From contig SFZH01000008.1 of NCBI GenBank assembly GCA_021234535.1, positions 186,001-250,000 on the forward strand: DNA of 64,000 bases. Direction: 5' to 3'. Source of the DNA: Stichopus chloronotus (Eukaryota; Echinodermata; Holothuroidea; Aspidochirotida; Stichopodidae). The notes under the pieces were generated by a model. The model was not told where the DNA came from and searched no databases. It was given only the letters and a program-made list of their open reading frames with translations. The first letter of the stretch is position 1; every line of letters starts with the position of its first letter. Below, in pieces: positions 36,955-62,775 of the stretch. Both the position numbers and the translations under genes were made by a program.

Positions 36955-37830
36955 TTGGCCCTTATCAACCCGGATCGGTGGGTGCTGGATGTCGCCTCCA
37001 AATGTTACCGCATTGAATTCACCTCCGCTCCCCCATCCTGGGGAGGGGGAAAGAAAACTCCAACACATTCCGATCCGGTTCAGCGCTCGGCCCTCGAGGA
37101 CAAGATCCGGGCATTGATCCAAAAAGGTGCGGTGACAGAAATGACCGGAGAGGAGGGGCCACTCTTTCGGTCAATCTTCTTCCTCACAAAGAAAAAAGAT
37201 GGATCGTGGCGCCCGATCTTAAATCTAAAACCACTGAACAAAAACTTTGTCCACCCAAAACATTTTCGCTTGGAGACGCTGAACCTAACATACCGACTCT
37301 AGCAAAGGGCCAGTGGGTGGGGAGCGTCGACTTAAAGGACGCCTGCCTACACATCCCTATGAACACAAGTTCCCAACGCTACTTGGCCTTCAACTAACAA
37401 GGTACGGACTTCAAGTTCACAGCTCTCCCCTTCGGACTATCCACGTCCCCAAGGGTGTTCTCCAGGGTCACAGGGGTGGTAGTTGCCGAACTAAGGAAGA
37501 GAGGGGTCAAACTGTTCACCTACCTAGACGACTGGCTCATCCTCTGAGAGTCCCGGTCAGTAGCCGAGGAAAACGTAAAGCTAACGACTCATCTACTAGA
37601 GTCCTTAGGCTGGGTCATCAACCGCACCAAGTCAAATCTGATCCTGTCCCAAACGGTCCACTTTCTAGGCGTTGGAGACCAGAGTTCAGGATCTCCGGCA
37701 GGCGGTCACGACACTCTGGTCGCGACAAAACCTCGTCGCGGACGACCGGCTGAGGGCCTTGAGAGCTCATGGCAAGCACAGTGGATGTCACAGACTATTG
37801 CAGACTTCGAATGCGACCCATCCAGGTTCA
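36955..37830 (+). pseudogene. DIRS-B reverse transcriptase, frameshifted
   Basis: 36955-37302 holds the fingers (LIQKGAVTEMTGEEGPLFRS, FFLTKKKDGSWRPILNLKPL). A frameshift near 37290 leads to WVGSVDLKDACLHIP; then a stop near 37397 and another change give LPFGLSTSPRVFSRV and YLDDWLIL at about 37515, followed by a stop. The text GWVINRTKSN continues to about 37670. Nothing could be made in one piece, but every expected block is present in order. Confidence 0.85.
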
Positions 37831-37869
37831 TCTCCTACAAAGATACAAACCAATGATACACAAACTCAG

Positions 37870-38576
37870 CACCCCGGTTCCCATGAACCAGGGGGACACG
37901 ACCACACATCGCGTGGTGGCTCCAGAACAACTCCTGGACGGAAGGGGTCCCTTTCACAACTCACCGTCACTCCACGTCCATCACGACCGACGCATCTCTA
38001 ACAGGCTGGGGAGCACGTTGGAGGGATCGAGTGACCTCAGGGAGGTGGTCTACTCAGGATTCGAATCTACAGATCAACCTCCTCCAGATGGAGGCTGTGT
38101 CAAGAGGCCTCAAAGCATTCGCAGAAGACCTCAGGGGTACTACAACTACCGTCTTCTCCGACAATACCACAACCGTTGCTGATATCAACAGACAAGGGGG
38201 AAGTCATTCACTCCCCCTGTGTCACGCAACTTGGGACCTTCTCCACTGGTGCCGGGAAAACGATATCGTCCTCCGATCCTCGCTTATAGCTGGGAAGGAG
38301 AACTGTCTGGCAGACGCCCTATCGAGGGGCGAACCAAATCCCAACGAGTGGGCCCTTCCGAACGAGCTATGCAATCGGTTCTTCCAAGTCTTTGGTCGCC
38401 CACACATAGACCTTTTTGCATCCCCAGAGAACGCGAAACTACCAACGTTTTGCACAAGATTCTTCCACCATCAGGCCCTGGTGACGGATGCCCTGTTGTT
38501 CCCCTGGGACAACTTGGAGGCTTACGCCTTTCCCCTGTTCTGCCTGATACGGTCGGTCCTAAACAAAGTCAAATGA
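37870..38576 (+). pseudogene. DIRS-B RNase H and linker
   Basis: The open part 38031-38576 carries INLLQMEAVSRGLKAF (Glu), VFSDNTTTVADINRQGG (Asp), then AGKENCLADALSRG (last Asp) and the DIRS-typical linker HIDLFASPENAKLPTF and DALLFPWDNLEAYAFP. The first Asp block before 38031 is frameshifted. A stop at 38574 separates it from the recombinase. Confidence 0.82.
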
Positions 38577-38784
38577 TCGAATAGTCCTAATAGCGCCGTG
38601 GTGGCCCATGCGTCCTTGGTTCCCGGACCTAGTGGCTCTTCTCATGGACCGCCCGATCATGCTCCCGGAGCGGTGGAAGTTACTTACCCAGAGGAAGGGG
38701 ACCATCCATCATCCCAACATGGCGAGCTTAAACTTGACTGTGTGGAAGTTGTCCGGTCTCGCCTAGGATGGTGAGGCCTTTCGA

Positions 38785-39784
38785 TGGCAGTTGCCAACAT
38801 GGTATCAAAGTCACACAGATCTTCCACTGTCAGGACTTATAATTCGAGACTGTCCCGATACACGCACTGGTGCCGTGACAAGTTGATCCAACCACAGCCC
38901 CTTTAGCTATGGTCTGCGACTTCCTCAATGGTCTGTTTCAGGAGGGGAAACAGGTTTCCACAGTGAAGAACTACAGATCGGCGATTGCAGCTGTCCACCT
39001 CCCATTCCCGGACATCACCGTCGCAGGGAGCAACGTCATTATTGCAAAACTAATCAGGGGAATGTTCAATACTCGACCTGCTCTGGTGAGACTGCCGCTG
39101 CAGTGGGACATCAATGCGGTCCTTAGGAAATTGGCGGGGCCACCGTTCGAACCTATGCATGAAGCTACTCTTCCGGACCTGACATCCAAGACGCTATTCC
39201 TCACCGCAGCCGCCTTGGCCAGACGCTGTAGTTGCCTGCATGCCCTCACAGTCAAACCCGGGCATTGTCGTTTCGAAAACCATGGAGTCAGAATGGTCCC
39301 GGACATAAACTTCCTGGCTAAGAACCAAACCTGACAGTTCGTCCCAGGGACATCTTATTACCTGAACTGTCTACAGCTTCCTCAGTCCCACAAGACTATA
39401 TGGTGCCCTGTACGGGCCTTGAAATGGTACCTCAAAAGGACCAAGGGGATTAGGAACTCCACCTCGCTGTTCATCTTACCTAGACCACCTCACACTCCCG
39501 CTTCCTGGGACACGATTTCGAGATGCATCAAGGACCTCATTCGTCCCCACATTCTTAAGGGGAGCAGGGTGGGGGCCCACGACATTCGAGGAGTAGCGGC
39601 CTCTTCTGCCCTCTTCGCCGGGGTAGCCATAGAAGATATCATTAAAGCAGCAGCGTGGAAGACTCCTTCAACCTTCGTTGCCTGCTATCTTTCCGACACT
39701 CTGGCCATGGACTCTGACTTCGGCCGTGCAGTGCTGAGAGGTCCGACGGGCAGGCCCAGCCCGTCATGCCCCCCACCATCATAG
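38785..39784 (+). pseudogene. DIRS-B tyrosine recombinase, nonsense-broken but with intact catalytic blocks
   Basis: The N-terminal core-binding part begins near 38785 (SHRSSTVRTYNSRL) and is stopped at about 38905. It reopens at 38909 (QVSTVKNYRSAIAAVH) and reaches the first catalytic Arg block, TAAALARRCSCLHALT, before a stop at 39332. The last part 39419-39784 has HDIRGVAASSALFAGV, AAAWKTPSTFVACYLSDTLA with Tyr at 39686-39688. Compared with copy A, the nucleophile is retained. At least two nonsense or frame changes remain. Confidence 0.85.
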
Positions 39785-39822
39785 CGTTGTCACTCTCTGC
39801 ATTAGTTAGATGGAGACAGGTA

Positions 39823-39895
39823 AGTTCGGAATGATGTAAATATCGCAAAACTCACCTGGTTTGGATATTTACGAATGACGAACTTACCTCTCTCC
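39823..39895. repeat. DIRS-B internal complementary region
   Basis: It starts GAGACAGGTAAGTTCGGAAT and ends with the inverse, ACTTACCTCTCTCC. Its reverse complement matches the right terminal repeat 40488-40545 (GTAAATATCCAAA(C/T)CAGGTGAGTTTT). Confidence 0.85.
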
Positions 39896-40487
39896 ATTCC
39901 CGCCACCCACCCCACTGACGACGGCGGGGACCTCCAACGACCTGACGCACGGGCTGGTTGCCATCACCTCAGACATGCTGGACCAACCACGTCCACCAGT
40001 CTTCCGTCAGCTTCTCTCGACACCTCACCAAACGTCTTAGGTCCATTCTACCAGAAGCACAACGGGGGTCGCTTTCTTTACGGTGAGATACTGTTCCTTT
40101 AGTACTCTACTATTGTTTTCTCCATGTTTGTATGTACCGCACCAAGTCTCATGTTAACATCATTCTCTCAACAGGACCTGTGCCTATGTGGGCCTCTAGT
40201 CCTTGGTGCCCTCTCCCCCCCCCCCTCGGCTGAGCCTACTCAGCTGCCCTGGGTCCTGCGGACGGAATGCTTTAAGGCTTCCAACGCCATGGCTCCCCCC
40301 ATCTACTAGGGGATCGAGCCTTCCTGGCTCGGAACTCTATGGTGACCACGGTGGTCGCACTTTTGGGGGCAATGGCACTTAGGGAAGGAGGAGCTAGTCC
40401 ATTGCGGGTTAGGGTGAAGGTAAAGGCGGGGTCAAAAGTTACCAGTAGTAATGCTAGCACGGTAGAGGGACGTGCATTAGTTAGATG

Positions 40488-44060: not shown

Positions 44061-45483
44061 GATTCCTTGCAGCAGAGGTCAAATTGTGAAAACCTTTTAA
44101 ACACAGTATCTCCAGAAGGGTAACTGTGACTTATGTCATATTTAGTGTGTGGATTGTATATAGTTAAGAGAATACTCCATTTGATTTTGGTGGAAGTTTA
44201 GGTCATGTGAGGTCACCAAAGATCAAGCTGTGAAAACCTTGTAAACACATTATCTCCAAGAGGGTAACTGTGACTGATGTCATACTTAGTGTGTTGCTTG
44301 GTCATACTAATTAGATGATTCCTATCATCTTTGGTTAGGGGCAAAGGTCATTTGAGGTCACCAGAGGTCAAACTGTAAAAACACAATATCTCCAGAAGAG
44401 TGACCATGACTGATGTAACACCTGGTGTGTGGGTTGGCAGTAATGAGCAGAAGATCTCTATTGTTTTGATTGAGGTCAAGGGTCATTTGAAGTCACCAGA
44501 GGCCAAACTGTAAAAATGTGTAAACGCAATACCTCCAGGAGTCTAACCTTCACTGATGTCTTACTTGATGTGTAGATTGTATATACTAAGCAGAAGACTT
44601 CTTTTGTTTGTGGTGGAGGTCAAAGGTCGTTTGAGGTCATCCGAGGTCAAACGTTGCTAGCACATTCACTCCAGAAGGGTAACTGTGACTTATGTCATAC
44701 TTAGTGTGTGGATTGCATATAGTCAAGAGAATACTCCATTTGATTTTGGTGGAAGTTTAGATCATGTGAGGTCACCAAAGGTCAAGCTGTGAAAACCTTG
44801 TAAACACATTATCTCCAAGAGGGTAACTGTGACTGATGTCATACTTAGTGTGTTGCTTGGTCATACTAATTAGTTGATTCCTATCATCTTTGGTGAGGGG
44901 CAAAGGTCATTTGAGGTCACCAGAGGTCAAACTGTAAAAACACTATCTCCAGAAGAGTAACCATGACTGATGTAACACCTGGTGTGTGGGTTGGTAATAA
45001 TGAGCAGAAGATCTCTATTGTTTTGATCGAGGTCAAGGGTCATTTGAGGTCACCAGAGGCCAAACTGTAAAAATGTGTAAACACAATATCTCCAGGAGTC
45101 TAACCTTGCTGATGTCTTACTTGATGTGTAGGTTGTATATACTAAGTAGAAGACTTCTTTTGTTTGTGGTGGAGGTCAAAGGTCGTTTGAGGTCACCCGA
45201 GGTCAAACGTTGCTAGCACATTAACTCCAGAAGGGTAATGATGACTGATGTCATACTTGATGTGTGGGTTGGCCATACTGGGTGGGTGATCCCTATTGCT
45301 TTTGGTGAACGTCAAATGTCACGGTCATTTCAGGTCACCAAAGTGAAGGTCATTTTGGGTTAAAGGCTCGTGGTGTATCATGAAAAATAAATGCAGTTGG
45401 TCTTACACTTGTCATGTGGATAATTCATGTTTGTTATAATATAGCCATGTAGCAAGGAATCACAAAGACTTTTGGCTTTCTGG
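44061..45483 (+). mobile_element. Hairpin-ended tandem-repeat element (family A), copy A4
   Basis: It starts GATTCCTTGCAGCAGAGG, with the 5' hairpin and GT tract collapsed. It then has about eight tandem units of ~135-150 bp. The block 44100-44660 is repeated nearly verbatim at 44680-45220, a higher-order duplication of about 570 bp. Units contain AGGTCATTTGAGGTCACC plus AGAGGTCA (44345 and 44904 onward). The last unit and tail are those of A1/A2, ending CAAAGACTTTTGGCTTTCTGG. No coding capacity. It occupies most of the 2.4 kb intron before exon 5. Confidence 0.8.
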
Positions 45484-45634
45484 TTGCTACTATTAATCAA
45501 TGTTATCTATAAATCGGTGTGAGCAAAAATCAATAGCAATATTATCGATATGAAGTGCAATACTTTATGTATATTGATATATATTGACTGACCTTAGCTT
45601 CAGTGTTACATTATTACTTTGATGTTGTTACTAG

Positions 45635-45818
45635 GGACATCAAGAGAGTGAAGGACACGAAAAAGTACTTCGATCGAATCACGGAGGAGCTGGATGGAGC
45701 CTTAAACAAGAACTGTCAGATCATTAAAGGGAAACCTCAAGAGGCAGAAGAGTGCCGGAAGTTGGTTTTAGCAACGAGATCAGCATTTGGTCACACAGCA
45801 TTTGACTACTCACTGCAG
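45635..45818 (+). CDS. ACAP: ACAP-family ArfGAP, BAR-domain exon 5
   Basis: This is the largest exon here (184 nt). After one base completing the Lys codon it reads DIKRVKDTKKYFDRITEELD, then ALNKNCQIIKG, then LATRSAFGHTAFDYSLQ. It covers the middle and late BAR helices of ACAP proteins, where the pattern (F)K(D)xKKxF, L-x-K-N-A/C-Q and T-R-x-x-F-x-H-x-A-x-D-Y-x-L-Q is characteristic. The related ASAP and GRAF/oligophrenin BAR domains differ in the last block. The acceptor is GTTACTAG, the donor CAG-GTAATA at 45819; it ends in phase 0. The anchor exon for the gene call. Confidence 0.93.
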
Positions 45819-46152
45819 GTAATATTTGTGTTATATTTATTAAATATGTAATATTCCTTCTTTCATTGTATCTCATTTTAATAAATTGTAACCTGTTGTA
45901 ACCATTCTCCTTTCCATGGACGAATCTCTCCATGTACCACTTTCCGCCATTCGCGTTGATCCACACTTTCCTCCGCCGGCTCCAGAGCACCCCAGCGGAC
46001 CTCCTCCTCGTCGCGCTGTGCTGGCCGAACCAGCCATGGTTCCTGCGACTCCTGTGTGATCTCCCGTTCCTCTTCCCGCCGGTACCAGACCTGCTAACCC
46101 AGCGGAGTGAGGCGCTACGTCACCCGGACTCGACAATGCTCTGGCTGGCTGC

Positions 46153-46998
46153 GTGGCCTCTGTCAGGTTGTCCCTCCAAGCAGCAGGCTTTTCAGCGAAG
46201 GCTGCAAACATTGCCGCGGCAGCCAGACGTCCCGCGATGATTCGCACTTATGATTCGCATTTGGAACGCTACTACAAATGGGCGGCTGAGCATTCTCTCA
46301 ATCCCATGGAGATGTCCGCCCCAGATCTGGCCAGCTTCTTCTACGCCCTCTTCGGAGAGGGACAGCAGGTCAGTACGATCAGGAACTACCGGTCGGCTGT
46401 GACGGCGGTCCACCGAGGGTTCCCAGACGGGTCCACGATAGGTACCAGCGTGGTGCTGCGCTAACTCCTGCGGGGCATGTTCCACCGACCCCCCCCTTCG
46501 CGACGTTTGCCACCGTCCTGGTCTATCAACGCGGTTCTTGATAAACTTGCCAGGCCTCCGTTCAATCCGCTCCGCAATGCACCGCTGGACCTCTTGACTC
46601 TTAAGACTCTGTTTCTCATGGCCGCAGCCTCGCCCCGGCGCTGAACCTCGCTCCACGCACTCACGCCTCAAACAGGTTTTATTCGCTTCGACCCTGCTGG
46701 GGTCCGCCTTCCAGACCCGCGGTTCCTGGCTAAGAATCAGTCGCTTTCCTTTACCGCGCGGGAGATCAAGCTACCGAAGCTTAGCGCTACCTCTTCGGTC
46801 GCGAAGGATAGATTGCGCTGCCAGGTCCGTACCCTCAAATGGTACATTGAGTGCACTAAGAACATTCGCACGTCGGACAGGCTATGCATACTCCCGCGGT
46901 GCCCATTCACGCCGGCCTCCAAAGAGACCCTCTCCCGCTGGATCGTTCCTTGATCCAGCCTCACGCCATCACATCGGAGCGCATCGGGGCACACGACC
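46153..46998 (+). pseudogene. DIRS-C tyrosine recombinase, C-terminally truncated
   Basis: 46153-46464 is open with the core-binding part (TYDSHLERYYKWAAEHSLNP, QQVSTIRNYRSAVTAVHRGF) and stops at 46462. The next part (SINAVLDKLARPPFNPLRNA, TLKTLFLMAAASPRR) reaches the first Arg block before a TGA. Then come AKNQSLSFTAREIKLP, RTLKWYIECTKNIRTSDRL and FTPASKETLSRWI, and after a frame change GAHDLR. The Trp and Tyr blocks that should follow are absent. Confidence 0.82.
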
Positions 46999-46999
46999 T

Positions 47000-47671
47000 A
47001 CGCTGACAACCGTTTCACCCCCACGTGACCGCGGCGAACCCCCCTCTGAAGGGGAAAATGACGAGCCTCTCCGGGGTACGGATATCTCCACGGATGCCTT
47101 CAAAAGTGCGGCTACCGTCCTTAGACGAACGTTGGGGTACGCGCCGGATCCGGCCGCGGCAGAGGCCTCGGCGTCTCGGCTAACGTTAAACGCGGCATCC
47201 GCCGCCCTGCGCGCGTCCATCCCGGTGGACGCGGAATGCGCCCAGCGTTTTCAGTCCCTTGCCTCGGCTCGGCAATGGTAGGCTTTTCAACAGGACGTCG
47301 CTCACGAGTGCTTTCCACGTCGAAGTGGCAGACTGGGTAAACCTCTTCTTCGCGCTGCACATCCCCGCACGGGGTCGGGAGCGACTGCACACGGCCGGAA
47401 CTCTCGATGCGTGCGACAGGTTTCGCGATAGAATTCATGCCGCCTCGAGACTAGTATGTACGACGTTGATAGGGCTTCACGGGCCAGGATGAAGTACGCT
47501 TCGGCCCTCCTGCTCTTCGCGGAGCTCCTTAATCGCTCCTTCACGCAAGCCCAGACAGCGGGCATCTCCCAGGCAGGTACCGGCGCGGTGATCGCGTTAT
47601 TGGGTCCGGTAGCCTGTAGCGTACTCGACCAGTTCGCCCGTATTTTGCCTCCTCGCTTCAGGTCTTGGTAG
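47000..47671 (+). pseudogene. DIRS-C gag piece
   Basis: The first part has DISTDAFKSAATVLRRTLG and IPVDAECAQRFQSLASARQW, stopped at 47281. After a frame change comes YDVDRASRARMKYASALLLF and GAVIALLGPVACSVLDQFAR, similar to the end of the DIRS-B gag (36200-36400). In a normal DIRS gag is the first gene, so its place after the recombinase is anomalous. Confidence 0.75.
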
Positions 47672-48154
47672 TCTGTGGCCCATCTTCGGGGAACATAGCC
47701 TGTTCCAACGCCGATGGTCGGTCTTCGTCTACTTGGAGTTAGGTAAGCACTGCTGGGGGGTTCATTCCTTCCCTCTCCACTACCGACCGGCACTTCACTG
47801 TCATCCCAGGCTCTGTTGGCCTGGGAATTCTGGAAGGGCGGTGGCCAGATACACACATGCACACACACACAAAATTGCCAGATGCTAGACCATGGTCAAT
47901 ACAGTAACGCATAGGTTATATGAGGTGAGTACGTCACTAGCGAATTCCCAAACCAGTAAGTTTTGGGGATTCCTTGGAAGTTCGCTCTGTAATGTAGAGC
48001 AAGCTCTGCGTAACATGAAACATCAACTGAAGCCTGCCGCTCGTGTTGTACCGTACATCTACCTGTGCACGACCTGCAGCCCGCCAAATGGTTCCAATAA
48101 ATGAAACAGCACTTCTGATTTCATTGGCTCAAGTACTTATGATGTCATAAAAAG

Positions 48155-48400
48155 TAAACAACGCCATCGAAAAGAAGACAACAAACTCAAAATAGGCAAC
48201 AGCATCAAAGGAAGCAACAGCATCGAAGAACACATTAACTCAAAGTAGACAACGGCATCAGAGGAAACAACGGCAGAAGTGAAGACTACAAACTCAAAGG
48301 AGACAACAGCATCGAAGGAAACAACGGTATTAAAGTAAACAATGGCATTAAAGTAAACAACATCACATAAAGGAAGCAACATCAAAGTAAACAACGGAAT
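48155..48400. repeat. ~18 bp degenerate minisatellite (AAACAACGGCATCAAAG)
   Basis: Successive variants such as GGAAACAACGG(C/T)AT(C/T)AAAG and AGACAACAGCATCGAAGG run for about 245 bp. The - strand open frame over it is a by-product. Confidence 0.75.
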
Positions 48401-48640
48401 GTATTGCCCGTTTGGCATTTCATACCTGGCAGTCATTTGGCATGTATGCCATACCATACACAGATGGTGGCTCATATGCCACTGATATATGCCAGTGGTT
48501 TTTGCATGCCACATGCATGCATGATGTGTGCCAGATGAGCATCAATGAGTGCAGCATGCATGCCTGATGTGAGCCAATGCTCTGGCAGTCAATTGGAATG
48601 CATGTTGCATGTTTCCTGCACACAAGCATTTCTATAAGGG
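48401..48640. repeat. TGCCA/GCATG-rich palindromic simple sequence
   Basis: Many overlapping GCATGC, TGGCAT and ATGCCA words (CCACATGCATGCATGATG, CAGCATGCATGCCTGATG). No coding meaning is seen. Confidence 0.5.
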
Positions 48641-48871
48641 ATACACTTCATTGTTCTACCATGAGGCTGCCCTTGAAAGGGACTTTGCAAAACCCTCATA
48701 GACAGGTTTTGTTACCTTAGATCAGTATGCTACAGCATTTTATACCAATCAGTTCTTTTTTTATGGAATTGAAAAGGAATTATTGGGAATATGAAGTTGA
48801 AAACAGAATTTCTTCCTTTCAGAAAATCAACAATCCCAGCATCAATTAAAAGAGCTGATGGTGCCTTTTTT

Positions 48872-50266
48872 GTTCCTTGCGTCAGCGAGGAAACCTATGC
48901 AGTCAGGTTGTCGTGTGTGTGTGTGTGTATGTGAGTGTGTGTGTGTGCATCTGTGACACTTGCATAGGTACACTCTAACTCAATAGGGGAAAGTCAGATG
49001 AAAGACTTGGTAAAACTTGGTATGTAGGTTTGCCATATTGAGAAGGTGTGCCCTATTGTTTTGGGGGGTCAAAGGTCATCTGGGGGAACTGGGGGCAAAA
49101 GTCTGTTTTGCTTGGGTATGCTGTAACTCAATAGGGGAATGTCAGATGAAAGTCAAACTTGGTATATAGGTTTGCCATATTGAGAAGGTGTGACCTATTG
49201 TTTTGGGGGGTCAAAGGTCATCTGGGGGAACTGGGGGCAAAAGTCTGTTTTGCTTGGGTATGCTGTAACTCAATAGGAGAATGTCAGATGAAAGTCAAAC
49301 TTGGTATGTAGGTTTGCCATATTGAGAAGGTGTGCCCTATTGTTTGTGGTGGAAGGTCAAAGGTCATCTGGGGGAACTGGGGGCAAAAGTCTGAAACCTT
49401 GTTATGCTATGGATGCTCATATGTTCCATCTGTCCCCCTCCAGTGCATCATAGAAGTACTGCTTGAGTCTGCAGTTTCTTGATCAAATGTAAAAGCAGCA
49501 GTGCTAGCTGTTTGCAGTAGTGTAGGTGGTCACACCAGACAAGTTTTGGCTGGATCAGTTTACCTCCTTGTGCCTGAGTGCTAATGTGTGCATTCATGTG
49601 TCTTTTCAATTAGTTAAGTGGGCAGGTTACAATGAAAGAAAGTAAGTCAGTTGGTGTTCTTACCAGTTTAAACTAGACCCTGGGAGTTCCCTCCAGGGTA
49701 TGCTATCAGTTTGGTGTACTTTCAAGGGGCATAGATGTGATAAGTCTTATTGCAATTTGCAGAGCCCCTACTTGAAATGAGAGATTCACAGCTGTTTGTG
49801 TTTTGTAAAATGAATGGGATATTGCTGTATATTGCAGAAATCAACATCTTCAATTCATTGCATTAATTGAAATGGCCTTTTTTGATATTTATGAACTCCG
49901 GCATATCGTTTTACAGTATGTATATTTCAAGTACAAGGAACCATAGTGCCCATAGGCTTTTGCGAAATCATGCAAAATACTTCTTCTCTTACAGATTGTA
50001 TGTAACACTGTTGATGATTGGTCACGTTAGTGCTATGGAAGTGGTTCCATATTGGTGCATGTTTATCATGTTTGGGGTCCAATGTCTGAAATGGGCCATT
50101 TTATAAAAGCATGAAATGTTTCTGTCTCTACAGATTTTATGTTACAGTGAGGGTTCATGGTCAGAAATGGGCCATATGTGCTGTTGTACAAAATTATGCA
50201 ATATGGTCCCGTTTACTTCATAATACTCTCCATCCTTGCAAGGAACCACAGTGTCCTTGGGCTCTT
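48872..50266 (+). mobile_element. Hairpin-ended tandem-repeat element, family B, copy B1
   Basis: The 5' end is GTTCCTTGCGTCAGCGAGGA, then a GT tract (48912-48950), then three units of ~125 bp (TTGCCATATTGAGAAGGTGT, GGTCAAAGGTCATCTGGGGG, AACTGGGGGCAAAAGTCTG). About 850 bp of unique-looking filler follows, including GCACTGCTTGAGTCTGCAG-like text. It ends GCAAGGAACCACAGTGTCCT followed by TGGGCTCTT. Copy B2 has the same start, filler and end. No gene. A diverged sister of family A: same plan and similar 5' hairpin, different 3' end. Confidence 0.78.
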
Positions 50267-50269
50267 GTT

Positions 50270-51792
50270 GATTCCTTTGCTGAAGGCAGGCAAGGAATCC
50301 ATGGGATGGTGATGTCGTGTGTGTGTGTGCGTATGTGCGTGTGTATGTGACGCCTTGTTTGTAAACACGGTATCTCAAGAAGTGTAACCATGACTGATCT
50401 CATACTTGGTGTGTGGGTTGGCCATACTGAGTAGATGATCCCTATTGTTTTTGGTGGAGGTCAAACATCATTTGAGGTCACCAGAGGTCAAAATGCGAAA
50501 ACGTTGTAAACATGATATTTCAAGAATGATAACTGTGACTGATGTCATACTTAGTGTATGGGTTGGTCATATTAAGTAGATGATCCTTATTGTTTTTGGT
50601 GTAGGTCGAAGGTCATTTGAGGTCACCAGAGATGAAACTGTGAAAACATTGTAAACACGATATCTCCAGAAGAGTAACTGTGACTGATGTCATACTTGGT
50701 GTGTGGGTTGGTCACACTGAGTAGATGATCCTTATTGTTTTTGGTTGAGGTCAAATGTCATTTGAGGTCACCAGAGGTCAAAATGCAAAAACCTTGTAAA
50801 CACGATACCTCAAGAACGGTAACTGTGACTGATGTCATACGTGGTGTATGGGTTGGACATATTAAGAAGATGCTTGTCGTTAAGAAGATCCCTATCGTTT
50901 TTGGTCGAGGTAAGAGGTCATTTGAGGTCACCAGAGATGAAACTGAAAACCTTGTAAACACGGTATCTCAAAAACGGTAACTGTGACTGATGTCATATGT
51001 AGTGTGTGGGTTGGTCATATTGAGTAGATGATCTCTATTGTGTTTGGTCATGGTCAAATGTCATTTGAGGTTACCAGAGGTCAAACTGTAAAATCCTTGT
51101 AAACACAGTATCTCCAGAAGGGTAACTGTGACTGATGTCATACTTAATGTGTGGGTTGGTCATATTGAGTAGATGATTCCTATTGTTTTTTATTGAGGTC
51201 AAAGGTCATTGGAGGTCACCCGATGTTTAACTGTTAAAACCTTGTAAAGACAATATCTCCAGAAGGGTAACTGTGACTGATGTCATACTTGGTGTGCAGG
51301 TTGTTCATATGGAGTAGATGATCTCTATTGTTTTTGGTTGAGGTCAAAGGTCACTTGAGGTCACCAGAGATCAAACTGTAAACACAATATCTCTAGGAAT
51401 TTACCCTTGACTGATGTCATACTTGATGTATGGATTGTATATACTGAGTAGAAGAATCCTTTTGTTTTTGGTGAAGGTCAAAGGTCATTTGAGGTCACCT
51501 GAGGTCAAACTGAAAACCTTGTAAACACATTGTCTCCAGAAGGGTGATGATGACTGATGTCATACTTGATATGTGGGTTGGCCATACTGGGTAGGTGATC
51601 CCTATTGCTTTTGGTGAAAGTCAAATGTTATTTGAGGACACCAAAAATAGTTCATTTGGGGTTAAAAGGCTCATTAATGTGGTGTTTCAAGCGCAATAAT
51701 TGTAGTTGATCTCATACTTGTCATGTGGGTAGTTCATGTTTGATATAATATAACCATGTTGCAAGGAATCACAAAGCCTTTTGGCTTTCTGG
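50270..51792 (+). mobile_element. Hairpin-ended tandem-repeat element (family A), copy A5
   Basis: It begins GATTCCTTTGCTGAAGGCAG only three bases after the end of B1. A GT tract follows (50318-50346), then about nine units of ~130 bp, each with TAACTGTGACTGATGTCATA, TAGATGATCC and AGGTCA clusters. At 51475-51507 four AGGTCA half-sites lie in a row spaced 1, 4 and 4 bases. It ends CAAAGCCTTTTGGCTTTCTGG. This is the fullest copy of family A in the window. Confidence 0.85.
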
Positions 51793-51794
51793 TT

Positions 51795-52413
51795 AATTCC
51801 TTGCCAAAGGCAGACAAGGAATCTATGCGGTCATGATGGTGTGTGTGTACGTGATGCCTTGTCCTATAAACATGGTATCGACGGGAAAGGTACTGGAATT
51901 TCAAAGTTGATTTGGTTGTTGTCCATTTTAAGTAAATGATGCTGTTGTTTTTCATGGAGGTCAAGGGTCATTTAAGGTCAACTGAAGTTATCATCTGAAA
52001 ATCTATGAAGGAAGATATCTCAGCAACTGAATATTGTTGGAGCTTTAAATGGTTAACATACTAGGTAACTCTTAAGGATCTTTGCCATTTTTTTATGGTG
52101 ATCGAAGGTCATGTGTGGTACATGGAGGTCATAGTTTGAAAACCTTTCAGACAGGGTATCTCAGTAAGGGAATTGAATGTTGCTGAATCTTCAAGCTGTT
52201 AATATTGGTAGACCTTGATGAGCAGATGAGCCAGTGCCATTTCTTATGGACCAAGATTGAAGGTCATTTTGAAGTCAGTCAAGATTATAGTTTATAAACT
52301 TGTAGACATGGTATCCCACAAAAAGTAAGGTGTTTGAACTTCAAAACTGGTATGTATTGTCCTTTGTTTCCTATGAATATTGGCAAGGAATCTCAAAATC
52401 ATTCGACTACTGG
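51795..52413 (+). mobile_element. Hairpin-ended tandem-repeat element (family A-like), copy A6
   Basis: The 5' hairpin AATTCCTTGCCAAAGGCAGA starts two bases after the CTGG of A5. A short GT tract and diverged units (AAAGTTGATTTGGTTGT, GGAGGTCAAGGGTCATTTAA) follow. The 3' end GGCAAGGAATCTCAAAATCA, then TTCGACTACTGG before TT, is a mutated form of the family A terminus. Units resemble those at 30285-30870. Confidence 0.68.
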
Positions 52414-52946
52414 TTTATTTACATGGATTACATCAAGGCAATCAAGGCAATAATTATGTGGTAGGCTGCATCGCCTAAATGTAAGAACAAGCATGCCACC
52501 ACGCTTTTTGGTTCCTTGCGTCAGCAAAGGAACCTATGCAGTCAGGTTGGCGTGTGTGTGTGCGTGCGTGTGTGTGCATCTGTGACACTTGCTTAGGTAC
52601 GCTCTTACTCAATAGGGGAAAATCAGATGAAAGTCAAACTTGGTATGTAGGTTTGCCATATTGAGAAGGTGTCCCCTATTGTTTTGGTGGAGGTCAAAGG
52701 TCATGTGGGGGAACTGGGGGCCAAAGTCTGTTTTGCTTGGGTACGCTGTATCTCAATAGGGGAAAGTCAGATGAAAGTCAAACTTGGTACAGTACAGCTC
52801 AGAATAAAACGGACGTTAGTAGCGTTAAACGTTAGAAATTTTGCGTTAGAAAATAAAATTCCTTCTGATACGAGTCTAACGTTAGTAACGATCACGATAG
52901 TTTCGTTACTATCGTTAGAGGGTTGCTCTACTGCTAGTAACTGCTA

Positions 52947-54915
52947 CAATCTTGGACAAAATTGTTGGGACACTTTGTCGTATGTTGCAAATATAATACT
53001 GAATTTTAGGTGACAGGATAACATGAAACCCCGCGCCCCTTTCCAATGTTGCGCTATAGAAGTGAATGTACCCTTTGAACAGCAATCCTACAGCCAACAT
53101 TGAACGGGGGCGCGGGGTGTCCCAAGGTTTTTTGTCCAAGATTGTCTGAGTTTTTTGGGAGCAATTTTGGAGCGAAATTTCGAAAGAAAATTGAACATTT
53201 TTGGACAAGGTGCATTATAAAAAAATAGTCATCGGGGCCTATGGGTCTTGGGATTTTCACATGAAAGTATTCTGAATTTCGACTATGAACGAAACAAGTT
53301 TAATCTTAATTTGGGGTTTATTTGTACATATTTTTGTTGAAAAGTAGTGATCATAAATGAACAGATTGTTTCATGGTATTGTATATGCGGACAGAATTAG
53401 TTGCGATTAGAAATAACATTTATGGGGAGCTGTTGCATTGCGTTGCAACAGGAATGTTACTGCAATTGTCGAATGCTGGTAGGAATCCCAGTTATAATGT
53501 ATTCTGAAGTAGCCCCACGTTCTACCAAAATGCGTTAAAGTCAGAAGTGTAGATTCAGCTTAATATTAAAATAATGGTAGAACGTTAGTAAAGGCTGGTT
53601 TTTTTACATTTTGGGCCGCTAAATCAAGAGTTGTGACTGCAATTTTTACATTGCATGCAGCTGGTAACGTAAGTAATTTCCAGACTTGTAATCTACGCAA
53701 TTTTCCCACGGGTTGCTTAAATTTTCCTGTCAAAACATTTGGTAGAACGTGGGTTTCCTGAACCTATACTGTCGGACTCTGTTGTTAGGAATAAGTCAGC
53801 TTGGATGGGGAGGCCGGGGTTCGATTCACGGTATGACCATAGTGTTTTTCACTGCTCAACTATCCACTTATAAAATAAAATCTCTGTCAACTTCTCATTT
53901 TTCATTCATTCATATATACGTAAGATAATATATATATGCATATTGATATAATGATACAGCTCTAACAACAAATATGTACTATGAAGTACGTTGAAACTTC
54001 TTAAAATGACTTACATATTACAGTGCACCATGTATGGTACAATGGAATGGGTGCCACAATGTCACTGTTAGGTGAATATGAGCAAACGTCACATTTATTA
54101 AATTTGCATTTTAGGGGTTTATTTTGTATAATGATAGTACACTTTTTTACCCAGATTAACCTCCAAGTCAGTCCTTATAATCATTAAGCGTAGTTACTTT
54201 AATACCAGACACTGTGAACAATTTGAATAAATAACACATTTACATCGATCTTCTTCAACGGACCACTAACATGTTAGTTTTTTGGGTGGGGTTTGTTTTT
54301 GTTTTTGTTTTTGTTTGTTTTTTCTCTTCGGTACCTGTCTCATTATCAGAAGTTTGAGCCGAAAGTACGTCATTTGTATCATACAAAATGTTTTAAAGTA
54401 GTTTCCTGGTCGACAAGATGCATTGGAGTTATGATGGTACCTCCCAAATGACTGCATTTTATTTAGCGCATTAAGAGCAAATACATGGATTTGACTGACT
54501 TATTTCTTCCTTTCCTCCGTAATAACATTGACAACATTCACACAATAATATTATTACAGTAAACCAACTTCACTATAGGCCCCAAACATGCCGAACATGC
54601 ACTCCTGATGTTTCTTGTTGCAAGGAATATTACCCCCCATTTTACCTTTTAACTTGTTTCAAATTGATGATTTTTCCTGTGCCCCGCGCATGCTTCTAAC
54701 CCCTCGAAATTCTCAGACAATCTTGGACAAAATTGTTGGGACACTTTGTCGTATGTTGCAAATATAATACTGAATTTTAGGTGACAGGATAACATGAAAC
54801 CCCGCGCCCCTTTCCAATGTTGCGCTATAGAAGTGAATGTACCCTTTGAACAGCAATCCTACAGCCAACATTGAACCGGGGCGCGGGGTGTCCAAAGGTT
54901 TTTTGTCCAAGATTG
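52947..54915. mobile_element. Composite element bordered by two direct ~198 bp inverted-repeat modules
   Basis: 52947-53144 and 54717-54915 are nearly identical, in the same orientation, and each has its own terminal inverted repeat (CAATCTTGGACAAAA and TTTTGTCCAAGATTG). The whole 1.97 kb is flanked by TA (52945-52946 and 54916-54917); copy 1 of the host element shows the empty site GCTAGGATCG at 5091. So the two modules and the 1.57 kb between moved as one unit. The interior (53145-54716) has no coding capacity and recurs in reverse at 41768-42285. Confidence 0.85.
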
Positions 54916-56404
54916 TAGGATCGTTAATTGCAGTAAACTTCTGCTCTTCCTAACGCTGGTAGCGTTAACTGCGTTACACCGACTTAAATTTTGTAACGTC
55001 GACGTAAGCTTTGGTTTGTACACTTGATAGCGCCTGCAGTGTCTTCGTGCCGAGAGCTTGCATTCTACGATGTGATGGTTTACGGCCATCATTTTGCACG
55101 CACGTGTCCAAAGGTGTAACAGGTGAAAATCTTTCTTTTTCAATTGGTCAGCGGTCAGTAAACGTCTTTCTACAGAAGCTGCCCGTTGTCACTGAATTAG
55201 TGCATAGTGTAAAACCTAATACAAATTTAATCAAATCCTCTCATATTGAAGAATTTTGAAATACCAACGTAATTTTGCGTACTAGGGATGGGCTATTTAA
55301 CAGAAATAGATGTTAAAAATTTCGTGATTGGATCGACGTTAACCAGCCAATCAGAGCTCGCGACACGCTCAATGCAATTTTTGTGTGTAGAAATTCTCAC
55401 ACACACTTAAGTCAATGGACTTCCCCCATTGAGTTTGTGTTATGATCACGCAAGTATCAGTTGAACGTTGGTACGGCAGCGAAGCAACGATGTTTGGATG
55501 AAAATATTTTATACTACAGATTTTTTAAATAAAGTTGATGGCCCGTGTATTTTGTCTTCCTATGAATAAGGTTCTTTGCAGGTCTACATAAGAGTGTCAT
55601 GAAAATATATCATGTGAGCCTCTTTGTTTTCACTGGCTCTGAGGTCAAATACCGTACTAGTGTTCTGTTACTACTGTAGTTCATGTTAAAATTAAGACAA
55701 TCTGGCAAATACAAGGAGCATTTTTTGAACTGATGAAAAGGGAGGTGTACAAGAGTTGGGGGAAGGTAGAGGTGAGAAGATTCACCGAAATAAACAAGAA
55801 AAATATACCCTTTAAAAGTAGGAATATTTGGTAATATAGTCAATCCAGCTATGGCACCAAATATTGCACCAATTTGCATCCAACCCCTCCCCCTGGCATG
55901 ATCAAAATTTTCCGAAGGGGAGGGGTACCACTTAGACCCTCCACCAGGTCGTCGATTTGTCTACCAGCTAAGAGACAAGTACCCGGACAAAATTTCGACC
56001 TGCTGAGAACGCTGCTTTATCCTTGCTGAATTTTTCAGTGTCTCTGTTTATCAAGGAATGCTTTAATAATTAAACTTGTCATGCCATTGAAATTATCTGT
56101 CAGCCTCTATCGTGCCATTTAGTGATTAAAACTTTGAAAATTCAAGGGAAAAATGAGAATTGGTGGGGTGGTAGTGAACATCTTTTTTATTTATGTATTG
56201 TAGAAAATCACATAACTGTCATCATTATATTTAGGTATTTTATTGATTGTGTTTCTTCCTCTATTTAATCATCAATGTAGATAAAGCTGGTATACCCACC
56301 TTGCATTACTTCCGTTAACAATGTTTTGGTTTTGTCTTCTTTGAATTATCGAAGAACCATTTTACCATATATCTCCTTCCACATCAAGAAATCAGTGAGT
56401 TTTT

Positions 56405-58741
56405 GATTCCTTGCCGAAGGCAGAGGAATCTATGCGATGGTGATGTCCTGTGTGTGTGTGTATGTATGTACATGTGTGTGTGTGACGCCTGCTTGTAAAC
56501 ACAATATCTAAAGAAGCGTAACTCTGAGTGATCTCATACTTGGCATGTAGATTGCCCATATTGAGTAGATGATCCCTATTGTTTTTGGTGGAGGTCAAAG
56601 GTCATTTGTGGTCACTAGAGGTCAAAAGGTAAATACCTTGAAAATTGCTTGTAAACATGATATCTCCAGAATCGTAACTCTGAGTGATCTCATACTTGGC
56701 ATGAAGGTTGCCCTTATTGAGTAGATGATTCCTATTGTTTTTGGTGGAGGTCAAAGGTCATTTGGGGTCAACAGGGGTCAAATTGTGAAAACCTTGTAAA
56801 CACGATATCTCAAGAAAGAAAGCTTGTAGAAATCTCATGTTTAGTATGTAGTTGCACCATGTTGAGTAAAGGAACCCTATCGTTTTCAGTGGAGATTAAA
56901 GGTCATTTGGGGTCAACAGGGGTCAAATTGTGAAAACCATGTAAACACGATATCTCAAGAAGAGAAGCTTGAGCAGATGTCATATGAAGTGAGTAGGTGT
57001 ATCTTATTGAGTACAAGGGTCACCAGAGGTCAAAAGGTAAATACCTTGAAAATTGCTTGTAAACACGATATCCCCAGAACGGTAAATGTGAGAGATCTCA
57101 TAGTTAGCGTGTGGATTGCCCATATCGAGTAGATGATCCATATTTTTTTTGGCAGAGGTGAAAGGTCATTTGGGGTCATGGGAGGTCAAAATGTGAAAAA
57201 CTTGAATCTACAATATTTAAAGAACGGTCCTTCTAGTGAATTTTATACTTGTAATGTAGAATCCTCTTGTTGATTTGAGAACTTCTTTTAGGACATACCA
57301 ACGTAGTCTCTTCAATAACCATAAAGAAAAGATGAAGCCAACATTAAATTTGGTATCAAAGATTATTATTTGGCAAACCTGCCACTGTCCTCATAAGGAC
57401 ATGTGAGCATTCATGAATTGTAAATTGGAATTGATTAAATATACCACGGGTTATTAGCTTTATAAAAAGAACTAAATTACTGATCATTTGGATCAAATAC
57501 CCTTGAGCGTGCATGAACTGTGATTGCTTAATTGAATGAATCAAATTGTAACTGACCCCCCTCTGTTCAAATTGGTCACTGTTATCTGACATAATTTATC
57601 ACAGTTGACTGCCAGTAGAAACCACAATGTCCAGAATAAATCATACAGTCTGTTGAGCCAGGTGCTCAATGGACTTAACCATTTACTGTATAAACAGTGT
57701 CTCTGTTTAGCCCTTAAAGGGAAAGAGGGCGTTTGTTTTACAGAAAACAACCATATTTTTAAAACCATTATTTGTGGACATAGAATGATAGATTATTCAA
57801 AATAACGAATTACAGTAGCCTTATTTTCAAGGAATAAGATTCTCACAGATCAGAAATTTAGCTATTTGTTGCTCAACAATAATTTGTTCACCCAAACTTT
57901 TTAAAATTCAAATGATGCATCCGTTACTCATCACATGCATAATGTTTTGAGGAGATGAAGCTTTGACAGATATATATTGATGAGATTGAATGGTTTAACA
58001 ATGGTTAAGGCGAATTTCTTTGTATGCCATGTTGGTGTATTCTAAACGCCCTATTTCACTTTACAGTAGTTCAGCTAAGCTTTAAACAAATGACTACTGT
58101 GTATCAAACCAGGGAAACTTGTACTGTGTGTTGTGTCTTTAAGTAGACTAAAGGCAAAATTGCAAGTCATGCTAGATTCTTGTGTAATAGGAATATCAGT
58201 GTTTGCTAATTTTCAAGGACCTCATAGCCATTGGGAAGGGCATCATGCCAAAAAATCAAATATGAAAGAGCTGCCACCAATAGCTGTAACTCGACAAAAT
58301 AAAGTGCTATAATTTTGATTAAATAAACATGTTTACCTTTTTATCAAGTTATTAGACACGACAAAATATAATTTGTTCCCCTGCAGCATCATATCCGTTT
58401 GGGAGTTTTCTCATGTTTGTGTAGGTCAAAGGTTATTTGGGGTGACAAAAGGTCAAAACCTTGTATGCATGATATTTTAAGGGTGATAAATAAGAGGGAT
58501 CTTATACTTAGTTTGTGAATTGTTCATATTTAGCATGTTGATGGCCATATAGGGTAGGTGATCCCTATTGTTTTAAGTGGAGGTGAAAGGTCATTTTAGG
58601 TCACGAGATTTCAAAAGGTTTTGACCTTACTAAGATGGTATCTCAAGTAGGATAACTGTGTGGGATCTCATGCTTGTCATGTGGGCGATTCATGTTTGTT
58701 ACAATATATATCATGAGGCAAGGAATCACTAAGCTTTCTAG
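56405..58741 (+). mobile_element. Hairpin-ended tandem-repeat element (family A), copy A7
   Basis: It starts GATTCCTTGCCGAAGGCAGA, with a GT tract and five or so units holding AGGTCAAAGGTCA at 56592 and 56748. From 57240 it has the same filler as copy A3 (ACCACGGGTTATTAG, GATCATTTGGATCAAATACC), now cut by the MITE at 57714-58063. It ends AAGGAATCACTAAGCTTTCTAG, a shortened 3' hairpin. It lies inside copy 2 of the large inverted-repeat element; the ~450 bp before it (55950-56404) is also absent from copy 1 and is unidentified. Confidence 0.78.
57714..58063. mobile_element. MITE with AGGGAAA-GGGCGTTT ends, copy 2 (inverted)
   Basis: Ends TTAAAGGGAAAGAGGGCG and CGCCCTATTTCACTTTA; about 350 bp. 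Reverse complement matches the MITE at 26774-27127 along its length (CATGTTGGTGTATTCTAAAC against its inverse). Copy A3 has the uninterrupted neighbourhood (CTCTGTTTAGCCCTCTGAGA at 34050), confirming insertion. Confidence 0.82.
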
Positions 58742-60757
58742 TTAGAGAGTAAGATAGAGACAGTATGGTTCTACTCCATACCAGTGTTCGCATTAAGGTA
58801 CAGAAATGCGTGACTGCTGTCGCTGTTCTCAAAATATCTCCCAAAATAATATGCAAGGGGGAATCCCTCTATTTTTTTAATGAAACAATTAAATATTATA
58901 AAATTCCCTTCTTCATCCTGCAAATTCCCAAAAAAATTATGGAAAGGGGCATCTTCCCCACACTTAAATTCTTGGTGCTAACACTGCTCCATATCACTCT
59001 GAAAGATAATAAAAGGCTGAACAACACACAAGATATGTGTTTGAAATATAAACCCATCGACTAGAAGGATCAAAATTAGTTTGATGGCTTTGACAATTGA
59101 TCAAACTGGGTTGATGGCTGAATGGCAGTCATATTTAAACCAAAATGCAATGTAAAGGATAATTTTGGAGCCTGTTACCAACAATCTGATCCTTCTAGTT
59201 TCGGCATTATTTAGTAGTTATGCATGGTGTAGCAGCTCATGACCTCGCCTGCCATGTTAGAATAAACATAGCAGCCATTATTGGCTCATCAGGATGGGTT
59301 CGCCATGGCTCATTGCACGAACAGTGAATTTGAACAAAGCAACACAATGGATTAGAATGAGATGTTAGAGATAACAAGTAGGCCCATGAAAATGAATTGC
59401 AAACTGGAATGTCCCTTGTTTCCTTCCAAGTGAAACTTTACACCTTCCAAGAGTAGTAGACTATATATACAACATTTCACCATAGCACACATCATGCACT
59501 AGGCCATAAATAGCTGATACAGTTGTTCAGTTTTAACTATTACTGTGTCTACAGCCTAGGCTACTTTTTATACAGTGGCTGGGTTAAACTACGAAGCTGG
59601 CCTAACTCACGGGCATTTTCATATCTAATGATTACGAACGTTCATGTTATTTGGTGCATACATAACCGGCTAGACTTACAGCCGTACGCACTAATTATCG
59701 TTAAAACTGCCTAGGCCTAGCCTATGGCCTAGCCTGATTACTACTTGATTCTAAATAATGTTACTGCAGCAATCACTAAACCATCTCGGAGTTTTACGAT
59801 GGGCTTTCCACACTGCCTGAAATTAAATTGATTCTGTAGAAAATACAGTACGAAAACCTTACTACTTCTGCTACTATACTGTACGGAAAATCTGCACAAT
59901 TCCCATGTGGTGAACTGAGCGAGTGATGTATAGCAGGCTTGCTGCTGCATATGCTGGCTCTATACACTGGACACGCAGTATAGTACACCGCACAATAACG
60001 CTGCTATCGCAAGTAACGTTAACAAAGTTTCTATGTACTGTTTTCTGTATATGTCAAAAAGCCGATGCAGTTGTTGACCATTTTTTCTTCTAACACAAGT
60101 AACGATGGAATCGTTACTTGAAGTGAAGATTGCAGGTGCGGAGAGGCCTAACGCTGGTAACGATACTCGTTGGTAACGAAAGTATTGATAATTGCGTTAC
60201 CATAGGTTCAATGGTAACGAAGCTATCGTTAGCAAGCAGAATTTTCTAACGCTTAACGCTACTAACGTCCGTTTTATTCTGAGCTGTACTGTATGTAGGT
60301 TTTCCATATTGAGAAGGTGTGCCCTATTGTTTTTGGTGGAGGTCAAAGGTCATCTGGAGGAACTGGGGGCAAAAGTCTGTTTTGCTTCGGTACACTGTAT
60401 CTCAATAGGGGAAAGTCAGATAAAAGTCAAACTTGGTGTGTAGGTTTGCCATATTGAGAAGGTGTGCCCTATCGTTTTTGGTGGAGGTCAAAGGTCATCT
60501 GGGAGAACTGGGGGCAAAAGTCTGAAAACCTTGTTATGCTATAGATGCTCATATATTCCATCAGTCCCCCTCCAGTGCATCATGGAAGCACTGCTTGAGT
60601 CTGCAGTTTCTTGATCAAATGAAAAAGCTGCAGTGCTGTTTGCAGTACTGTAGGTTTTGACAAGTTTTGGCTGGATCAGTTTACCTCTTCGTGCCTGAGT
60701 GTTAATGTGTTCATTCATGTAAATGTCTTTTCAATTAGTGAGGTTGGCAGGTACCAA

Positions 60758-61884
60758 TAGCCGTGTTCCCATTTGAGTGAGCGCAGTGGATCAAGATCTA
60801 CCGCGCTAGATCAAACTCTAATGGGAACGCGGATCAACAACGCTCACTCAAGATCAAGATCCACCGATTTTGATGCACCCATCGGGGTAGATCAGATCGA
60901 CCGCTCTGGATCAAAGTTCGTAATGGGAACACATCGGTAGATCAAGTGACCCTGGATCTCCGGTTTATTCCTTCCCGGCATGCATTTGCTTTCCGGTGGC
61001 AAACGTGGGTAATTAGTTCTAACTTAAGCCTCGCTGGGCACGTCGCTAGTAGGGCAAGTGTATACACCATAGTGCAGTAGTGTAGTGTACATGTACAGCG
61101 CACATTTTCTGCCTGTATTTCGCTACTGATTGACCGAGAAGGGGCTAAGTTACTGCAATTCTGGTAATGGTACTAATTTAGAATCGGTAGCAATTGGACA
61201 AGGTATCAGGTATAATTAAAAGAACTAGCGAGCACGTTCATATGGTACAGATTTTAAAGTTGCGCCCTGATAATTTATAAGAAATTTGGTCTGTTCGTTG
61301 ACTTATTTTTGGTATGTTGCTTTTTTAAACAATTTCTTCTTACATCTGCTCTGTTATCGATAAATTGAACCCCTGATATAAAGTGTATATAAACTGCCGA
61401 ATGGCATTTTAGTGCAACAAGAGCAACATTCGTCAAGTGGTCAACTGCCTTCGATGTAATAAACTCTTAACTGAGATAGAAGCACTAGCAAACTTGCCAA
61501 ACCAGCAATGTTTACCTCCATATTAAAAAACAAATGACGTTCTTGACATGTGTTAATACCTCACGCTCCTCAGTACGTAGTGGAAGTGGGAACAAAGTTA
61601 GTGCAAAGCTGCAAAATTATGATATGACCAATACTATGCTGCTGTTGTAGTGTGCATGCAGTTAGCAACACGCGCACATGTACATTTTTGTGATACAGTG
61701 CTAGTGTGCGATATCCGACTTGTAAACGTTGGTGACCTTTTCGTGCTTACGCAATGTGTTCATATAACATGTTGATCTACCGCGCTCACTCAAATGGGAA
61801 CGCGGTTCTGGATCAAGTTATTCGACACCACTCGATGCAATAAAACCATGATCCACCGCGCTCACTCAAATGGGAACACGGCTA
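60758..61884. mobile_element. 1.1 kb inverted-repeat element (TAGCCGTGTTCCCATTTGAG ends)
   Basis: Ends TAGCCGTGTTCCCATTTGAG and the inverse CTCAAATGGGAACACGGCTA, with homology running on (TGAGCGC, GGATCA). Inner copies of AATGGGAAC, GATCTACCGCGCTCACTC and GGATCAA repeat near both ends as subterminal motifs. Compared with B1 at 49620-49640 (AGGTTACAATGAAAG), the insertion is between AGGTACCAA and ATGAAAG; the duplication is 1-2 bases and ambiguous. No protein gene. Confidence 0.82.
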
Positions 61885-62521
61885 ATGAAAGAAAATAAGT
61901 CATTTGGTGTTCTTATCAGTTTAAACTAGACCCCAGAGTTCCCTCCAGGGTATGCTATCAGTTTGGTGGACTTTCAAGGGGCATAGATGAGATAAGCCTT
62001 ATTGCAATTTGCAGAGCCCCTACCTTAAATGAGAGATTCACAGCTGTTTGTGTTTTGTAAAATGAATGGGATATTGCTGTATATTGCAGAAATCAACATC
62101 CACAATTCATTGCATGAATTGAAATGGCCTTTTTTGATATTTATGAACTCAGGCATATCGTTTTACAGTATGTATATTTCAAGCACAAGGAACCATAGTG
62201 CTCATATATGCTGTTGTGAAATCATGCAAAACACTTCTTCTCTTACAGATTGTATGTAACACTGTTGATGGTTGGTCACATTAGTGCTATGGAAGTGGTT
62301 CCATGTTTATCATGTTTGGGGTCCAGTGTCTGAAATGGGCCATTTTATAAAAGCATGAAATATGTGTCTGTCTCTATAGATTTTATGTTACAGTGAGGGT
62401 TCATGGTCAGAAATGGGCCATATGGGCTATTGTACAAAATAATGCCATATGCTCCCTTTTACTTCAGAATTTACATTATACACTCCATATGTGCAAGGAA
62501 CCACAGTGTCCTTGGGCTCTT

Positions 62522-62775
62522 CTTTGTGTAGGGGATTTACAAGGGTAATGCGTTGATAACGCAGGAAAAACCACAATTCATTCATGCCTTTACGCAGTTA
62601 AAAGGTGACAGATAACATTTGAAAGTCTAACATTGAGGTAAAAAAAATTGAAATGCTTTGAGTCAAGTAGTGCAGGAAATCTGTGTAAACAATCAGTAGA
62701 ATTTTGCTCTGATTTAACAGACAGCTGTTCATTTAAATGTTTAAACGCATAAATGTGACTGTACGGTAGTAATGA
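62522..62775 (+). other. Intron sequence, nothing recognised
   Basis: AT-rich spacer between the end of B2 and the minisatellite. Confidence 0.45.

Follow-up and report, generated by a model that had tools for sequence, protein, structure and literature searches.

The question raised by this locus is how a 64-kb stretch of DNA (the window, meaning the whole of the stretch analysed) came to hold 100 copies of the half-site AGGTCA on its plus strand and 10 on its minus strand, and whether the sites that they form serve a receptor, a mobile element or neither. The exact DR1 AGGTCAAAGGTCA occurs 11 times in the window, always on the plus strand. The original prediction had counted at least eleven, and all were found at the coordinates it gave; the DR4 pairs that it placed at 44345, 44904 and 51482 are present, as are four half-sites in DR1-DR4-DR4 order at 51475-51507. 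The 11 sites are not independent and fall in six elements or arrays:

30470, plus strand: one exact DR1
32800, plus strand: one exact DR1
49354, plus strand: one exact DR1
51196, 51341 and 51475, plus strand: three exact DR1 sites
52691, 60340 and 60485, plus strand: three exact DR1 sites
56592 and 56748, plus strand: two exact DR1 sites

Counting pairs of exact AGGTCA on the same strand with starts at most 40 bp apart, the plus strand holds 11 DR1, 17 DR4, 3 DR9, 9 DR11, 9 DR14 and 8 DR21 pairs and no other spacing, and no such pair is found on the minus strand of the 64-kb window. When the half-site is relaxed to RGKTCA, direct repeats within the spacing of 1-5 that is the consensus of receptor response elements are present on the plus strand (16 DR1, 2 DR2 and 28 DR4 pairs), and the minus strand of the window has no RGKTCA pair. 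Most of these spacings have a common source in a repeat unit of about 145 bp, matched 49 times in the window by a profile grown from one unit, whose consensus holds the box AGGTCA-A-AGGTCA-TTTG-AGGTCA-CCAG-AGGTCA with half-sites starting at 0, +7, +17 and +27. The exact spacings 1, 4, 11, 14 and 21 all derive from this DR1-DR4-DR4 box and, given that 86 of the 100 AGGTCA copies lie within or adjoin the units, the DR11, DR14 and DR21 pairs indicate that one ancestral box was copied and that the sites do not represent many separate gains. The one box that remains whole can be read in the same way:

51475-51507, plus strand: intact DR1-DR4-DR4 box with four AGGTCA, identical to the family consensus box

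Given this identity, the site is simply a unit whose box is undamaged. A comparison of all exact DR1 sites with 100 dinucleotide shuffles of the window (mean 0.01, with no shuffle reaching 11) makes the sites look more surprising than they are, the copies being related by descent. Comparison with shuffled units, proposed with the original prediction, bears out the enrichment: when the 141-column consensus unit was dinucleotide-shuffled 20,000 times, no shuffle had a DR1, none had four AGGTCA and 56 had two or more. The half-sites of the single ancestral unit are non-random and well above chance. The unit also carries TGTAAACA, with 19 of its 21 plus-strand copies in or near units, and TATTGTT, with 19 of 25 copies so placed, which we take to be forkhead-like and SOX-like motifs respectively, matches of a kind that is common by chance.

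The units lie within elements that have recognisable ends, in agreement with the claim that the half-sites are transposon-borne in fixed spacing, the box being part of the repeat unit of mobile elements. The copies and their parts are as follows:

19256-20770, plus strand: HINE copy in a gypsy gene, without target duplication, its flanks joining into one frame
30243-30807, plus strand: array of diverged group C units; DR1 at 30470
32630-33295, plus strand: HINE copy 5, with left hairpin remnant, TG tract and A3 units; DR1 at 32800
44061-45484, plus strand: HINE copy 1, with left-end motif GATTCCTTGC, second hairpin arm missing, nine central units, 3' subTIR GCAAGGAATC, near-palindrome and end CTGGT
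50270-51793, plus strand: HINE copy 2, with hairpin GATTCC..GGAATC, TG microsatellite, nine units and a partial one, 3' subTIR, palindrome AAAGCCTTTTGGCTTT and end CTGGT; DR1 at 51196, 51341 and 51475
51795-52414, plus strand: HINE copy 3, head-to-tail after copy 2 with one T between, with diverged group C units
56405-58742, plus strand: HINE copy 4, with hairpin, TG tract, A3 units, 3' subTIR and end CTAGT; DR1 at 56592 and 56748
20739, 23588, 45453, 50239, 51762, 52384 and 58719, plus strand: seven matches to CAAGGAA[TC]C taken as right ends

The array that opens the predicted interval, HINE copy 1, supports that prediction in part: its DR4 pairs are present and an exact DR1 is not (none of the eight units of group A1 has one), with RGKTCA-type DR1 at two positions, 44473 and 45030. 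Within this A1 array, 44102-44715 and 44661-45271 are 95% identical and form a higher-order repeat, so the array seems to have grown by duplication of a block of about four units. The right end of copy 5 (32630-33295) and both ends of the array at 30243-30807 were looked for and not found.

The order of parts is a T run, GATTCCTTGCC with its complement as a hairpin, a short link, a TG tract, the central units and the right end, the elements thus being bounded by GATTCCTTGCC and GGCAAGGAATC..CTRGT. Folding of five left ends is better than that of shuffles (z from -2.6 to -5.0), TG-rich tracts stand behind the left ends at 19256, 32630, 48872, 50270, 52510 and 56405 and are absent behind that of copy 1, and TT precedes all six left ends listed, in two of these as the end of the neighbouring element. 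The central repeats keep a constant orientation to the ends, with 49 of 49 units and the left hairpins on the plus strand. At the right end, GCAAGGAATCAC is followed in the best copies by AAAGCCTTTTGGCTTT, and then by CTGGT and T. The 3' subTIR is complementary to the 5' one, and CAAGGAA[TC]C matches 13 times on the plus strand; besides the seven right ends listed, these matches comprise the family B right end at 62494, two in left hairpins and three others (32076, 49934 and 62186). Six of the seven right ends have CT[AG]GT and one has CTTGT, with T following in six, figures that reflect a choice of seven among 13 subTIR matches in a search of which the end letters were part. The palindrome AAAGCCTTTTGGCTTT is perfect in three copies (20739, 23588 and 51762), has one mismatch in a fourth (45453) and was not recognised in the remaining copies of the window; its folding is weakly better than that of shuffles (z of -1.77 for the perfect form and -0.21 for copy 1). 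No Rep/helicase partner was seen in the window. The strength of the 3' stem and the unseen autonomous partner are exceptions to the agreement with the HINE description. Nevertheless, given that the anatomy, the insertion between T and T and the lack of a target duplication match what is described in the relevant parts of PMC7492417 and PMC4067079, the elements are filed as HINEs, and the arrays would be the central tandem repeats of these non-autonomous Helentrons.

Two further copies belong to family B, the second of them in three parts:

48872-50268, plus strand: family B copy 1, with hairpin, TG tract, three units and a tail of about 870 bp, DR1 at 49354, and right end CAAGGAACC..CTTGT followed by one T before HINE copy 2
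52510-52789, plus strand: family B copy 2, left part; DR1 at 52691
52790-60291, no strand assigned: 7.5-kb transposon, inverted ends 52/60 identical, start CAGTACAGCTCAGAATAAAACGG, TA duplication
60292-60758, plus strand: central portion of family B copy 2, beyond the first insertion; DR1 at 60340 and 60485
about 60760-61883, no strand assigned: second insertion in family B copy 2, about 1.1 kb, inverted ends given as AGCCGTGTTCCC and as AGCCGTGTTCCCATTTGAGTGAGCGC, AAT on both sides
61884-62524, plus strand: family B copy 2, right part, after the second insertion; right-end motif CAAGGAACC at 62494

The left edge of copy 1 was set by eye and its extent was taken from a repeat, 49162-50269, that matches 60291-60758 together with 61884-62524. 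By this match, copy 2 extends from 52510 to about 62524 and was interrupted by two insertions, and the sites at 52691, 60340 and 60485 therefore belong to one element. In this family the left GGTTCCTTG pairs with the right-end CAAGGAACC. The 7.5-kb transposon sits in a unit of copy 2 and itself carries HINE copy 4 (56405-58742). A shorter relative of it lies near 4952-8863, and it contains 200-bp direct repeats (52946-53145 and 54717-54916, 99% identical, about 1.8 kb from start to start) that are perhaps a nested insertion with terminal repeats. Three elements, at 48872-50268, 50270-51793 and 51795-52414, stand end to end with one T between them; tandem arrays of Helitrons are ascribed in a passage of PMC4067079 to bypass of the stop signal, and repeated insertion at the terminal TT would give the same end-to-end look.

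The manner of insertion is best seen at 19256-20770, where the HINE lies in a gypsy retrotransposon of the opposite strand. The right flank encodes gag zinc knuckles and a protease motif (translation by eye), and an ORF of the left flank matches Pfam RVT_1. Joined within the T run, with one T fewer than in the first join, the two flanks make one open frame, and this restored gypsy frame indicates insertion of the HINE in a T run without target duplication. A second, weaker sign of an empty site comes from the relative at 4952-8863, which realigns to the 7.5-kb transposon from 58744, two bases past the HINE end at 58742. The stretches 19687-20770 and 22538-23619 form a 1.08-kb duplication of 97% identity that ends at a HINE right end.

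It is suggested that these HINEs spread by the rolling-circle route, using proteins from outside the element, and that transposition, together with duplication within the arrays, would have copied along the DR1-DR4-DR4 box held by an ancestral monomer of about 145 bp. Most copies of the box would then be carried along passively, and receptors would occupy only a small number of them, in open chromatin. A probability of roughly 0.8 is given to this reading as a whole, that is, that HINE central repeats copy an ancestral four-half-site box, that binding by NR2-type receptors can be inferred and that most copies are passive. As DR1 is their textbook site, it is plausible that NR2-type receptors (HNF4, RXR, COUP-TF, TR2/TR4) would bind it in vitro, judging from the sequence. 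An NR5/ERR reading was rejected, since TCAAGGTCA, presumably the motif of those receptors, occurs 0 times in the window. PMC3252374 gives the DR1 of HNF4 as AGGTCAxAGGTCA, with a CAAAG core that counted in binding arrays, and states that all animals examined have HNF4; DR4 is of thyroid-receptor type (PMC1785376). These facts make the predicted binding in vitro likely. The title of a 2026 paper (PMC13187458) names TRIM28 as recruited by orphan receptors for telomeric H3K9me3, so arrays of receptor sites can attract silencing and repression is as possible as activation.

As to the surroundings of the sites, the window holds one exon beside an array:

45635-45818, plus strand: host-gene exon encoding a portion of a BAR domain (Pfam BAR_3, E 5.4e-15; edges by eye, AG/GT)

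HINE copy 1 (44061-45484) ends about 150 bp before this exon and is therefore probably intronic, and the predicted spread of receptor sites through introns would be borne out for this one copy. All 49 unit matches, the nested ones included, share the strand of the BAR exon; for HINEs of the oyster both orientations are reported.

That DR1 is the least variable part between five subfamily consensi is unexpected from passive passage alone. When 43 of the 49 unit matches were placed in groups A1, A2, A3, B and C, drawn by hand from position and likeness, none of the 13 DR1 columns varied, against 57 of the 119 others (Fisher 6e-4, with columns treated as independent though they are not), and DR1 was the single least variable 13-column window. 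The longest invariant run, 17 columns holding DR1, was reached by 15 of 10,000 column shuffles; family B has lost its DR4 half-sites and kept DR1; and mismatches within groups amount to 44/511 in DR1 against 698/4643 elsewhere, cells again being treated as independent. These figures hint at constraint on DR1 in the propagating masters, and raise the possibility of selection at the level of the element, whereby receptor binding in the germ line or early embryo would open chromatin or aid transcription, so that masters keeping DR1 would spread best. However, this is unlikely, given that cells and columns are not independent, that the groups are hand-drawn and that DR1 itself helps to anchor the alignment. 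Six unit matches were left out of the five-group test; four of these, the terminal units of certain arrays, form a group E. Two of the four stem from one 97% duplication, and the consensus of the group has one base changed in each DR1 half-site, so that the exact DR1 is lost. With these six groups the contrast in columns persists (2 of 13 against 65 of 119, Fisher 0.008) and DR1 is tied as the least variable window, but the longest invariant run falls to 6, which is ordinary (6239 of 10,000 shuffles). Furthermore, group A1, with 0 exact DR1, has a mismatch rate no lower in DR1 (15/102) than elsewhere (144/947), and in the younger groups DR1 is not exceptional and other blocks are equally kept. 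Among 120 windows DR1 ranks 10th over the five groups and 20th without group C (63rd in A1, 29th in A2, 9th in A3, tied first in B and 2nd in C) and, in the conservation test on 40 long units of the 49 matches, 5 of 140 circular shifts were as conserved as DR1, or 14 of 140 by parsimony. The resident copies thus give no clear sign of constraint on DR1. The fuller proposal, that an NR2-type DR1 is retained by this Helentron family as the core of its central repeats on which selection acts, and that germ-line or embryonic binding favours the spread of the element and disperses arrayed receptor platforms, is more doubtful still. If it were true, each insertion would bring several DR1/DR4 boxes, plus the forkhead-like TGTAAACA, dispersed genome-wide as ready-made receptor platforms. 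Whole-genome data would test whether a transposon can owe its success to the site of a factor, a matter that bears on the spread of receptor sites in an invertebrate-like genome.

Conservation of DR1 between propagating groups would also fit a box that serves the machinery of transposition or replication, through iteron-like binding of Helentron Rep or recombination between units, and the direct repeats at 7 and 10 bp are iteron-like in form. This is the least probable of the explanations weighed, given that the box lies in the central repeats, where related oyster HINEs carry unrelated versions (PMC7492417), and that nothing in this analysis ties it to Rep. Co-option of the repeats as enhancers of host genes, as the original prediction implied, has precedents in DINE-1-like elements and in the PHERES1 Helitrons, and one copy adjoins the BAR exon; this is nevertheless very unlikely, as individual copies show no visible constraint and the exact DR1 is absent from 32 of the 43 units with a readable box. 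Passive copying of an ancestral box by HINEs is retained as the main reading.

The spread of binding sites by Helitron-type elements and the presence of receptor sites in Alu are already known. In Cg_HINE (Crassostrea gigas) and Pearl, the structural account in PMC7492417 gives the same 5' subTIR with IR, microsatellite, 3' subTIR and palindrome (perfect in three of the copies here), the same fixed-orientation central repeats (mostly 140-180 bp there), a T-rich target and no TSD; the microsatellite is TG here and mostly a 4-base one in Cg_HINE, and the likeness is one of anatomy. DINE-1 and HINE-Mo share the 5' palindromic subTIR, the 3' stem-loop (weakly folding here), the TT target and variable terminal Ts (PMC4067079), and are likened by anatomy, the AGGTCA box being present here and unmentioned in the relevant part of that source. 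In D. miranda the male-specific lethal complex has sites that DINE-1-like elements provided (PMC4067079; see also PMC4384637, on ISX). The Arabidopsis RC/Helitrons of the PHERES1 system likewise hold a factor's motif in their family consensi and were spread as rolling-circle elements (PMC6914339, in part), but that system concerns a plant, a MADS-box factor and binding seen by ChIP-seq, whereas the present sites are predicted from sequence. The Alu comparison drawn in the original prediction is apt, since published DR2/DR4 and HNF4-alpha sites in Alu (PMC1785376 and PMC3252374, each in part) are also nuclear-receptor direct repeats multiplied by a transposon; the DR2 of the consensus Alu is there traced mostly to CpG deamination of a non-consensus motif, whereas here the consensus of the monomer has a perfect DR1-DR4-DR4, repeated along the arrays. 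Accounts of Helentron central repeats, PMC7492417 among them, usually treat these as satellite-like DNA; the present monomer includes a textbook receptor site, which one insertion carries several times over. Searches of the open-licence literature gave no case of a DR1-DR4-DR4 box in a Helentron central repeat.

Searches elsewhere added little to this. A scan of IMG/VR for the A-type box gave 0 matches, and a looser three-half-site pattern gave at least 116 GTDB stretches and 13 IMG/VR stretches; the unit profile matched none of the 129 loci from that pattern, so those loci are uninformative on the element. Within the window, Rfam at gathering scores and a tRNA scan had no hits, and an ORF spanning the array, used as a protein query, returned no candidate. 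The longest stop-to-stop ORF in the two array regions listed is at most 86 aa, and a coding role of the arrays is thus unlikely; a guessed upstream exon at 32292-32348 had no Pfam match and was dropped. Two retroelement regions, 750-3300 and 35279-39900, both on the plus strand, are in our estimation DIRS-like in look; four of their ORFs had no Pfam match, and for the ORF at 37887-38573 there are 20 protein relatives with E no higher than 0.001, identity reaching 50-55% in the best of them. Named relatives of the DIRS-like and gypsy proteins are 37-56% identical and come from molluscs, echinoderms, a tunicate, fishes and reptiles, with one fragment labelled Salmonella. An inverted stretch at 30880-31100, with TG/CA tracts between matching arms (CTCATATAA..), is perhaps another foldback element.
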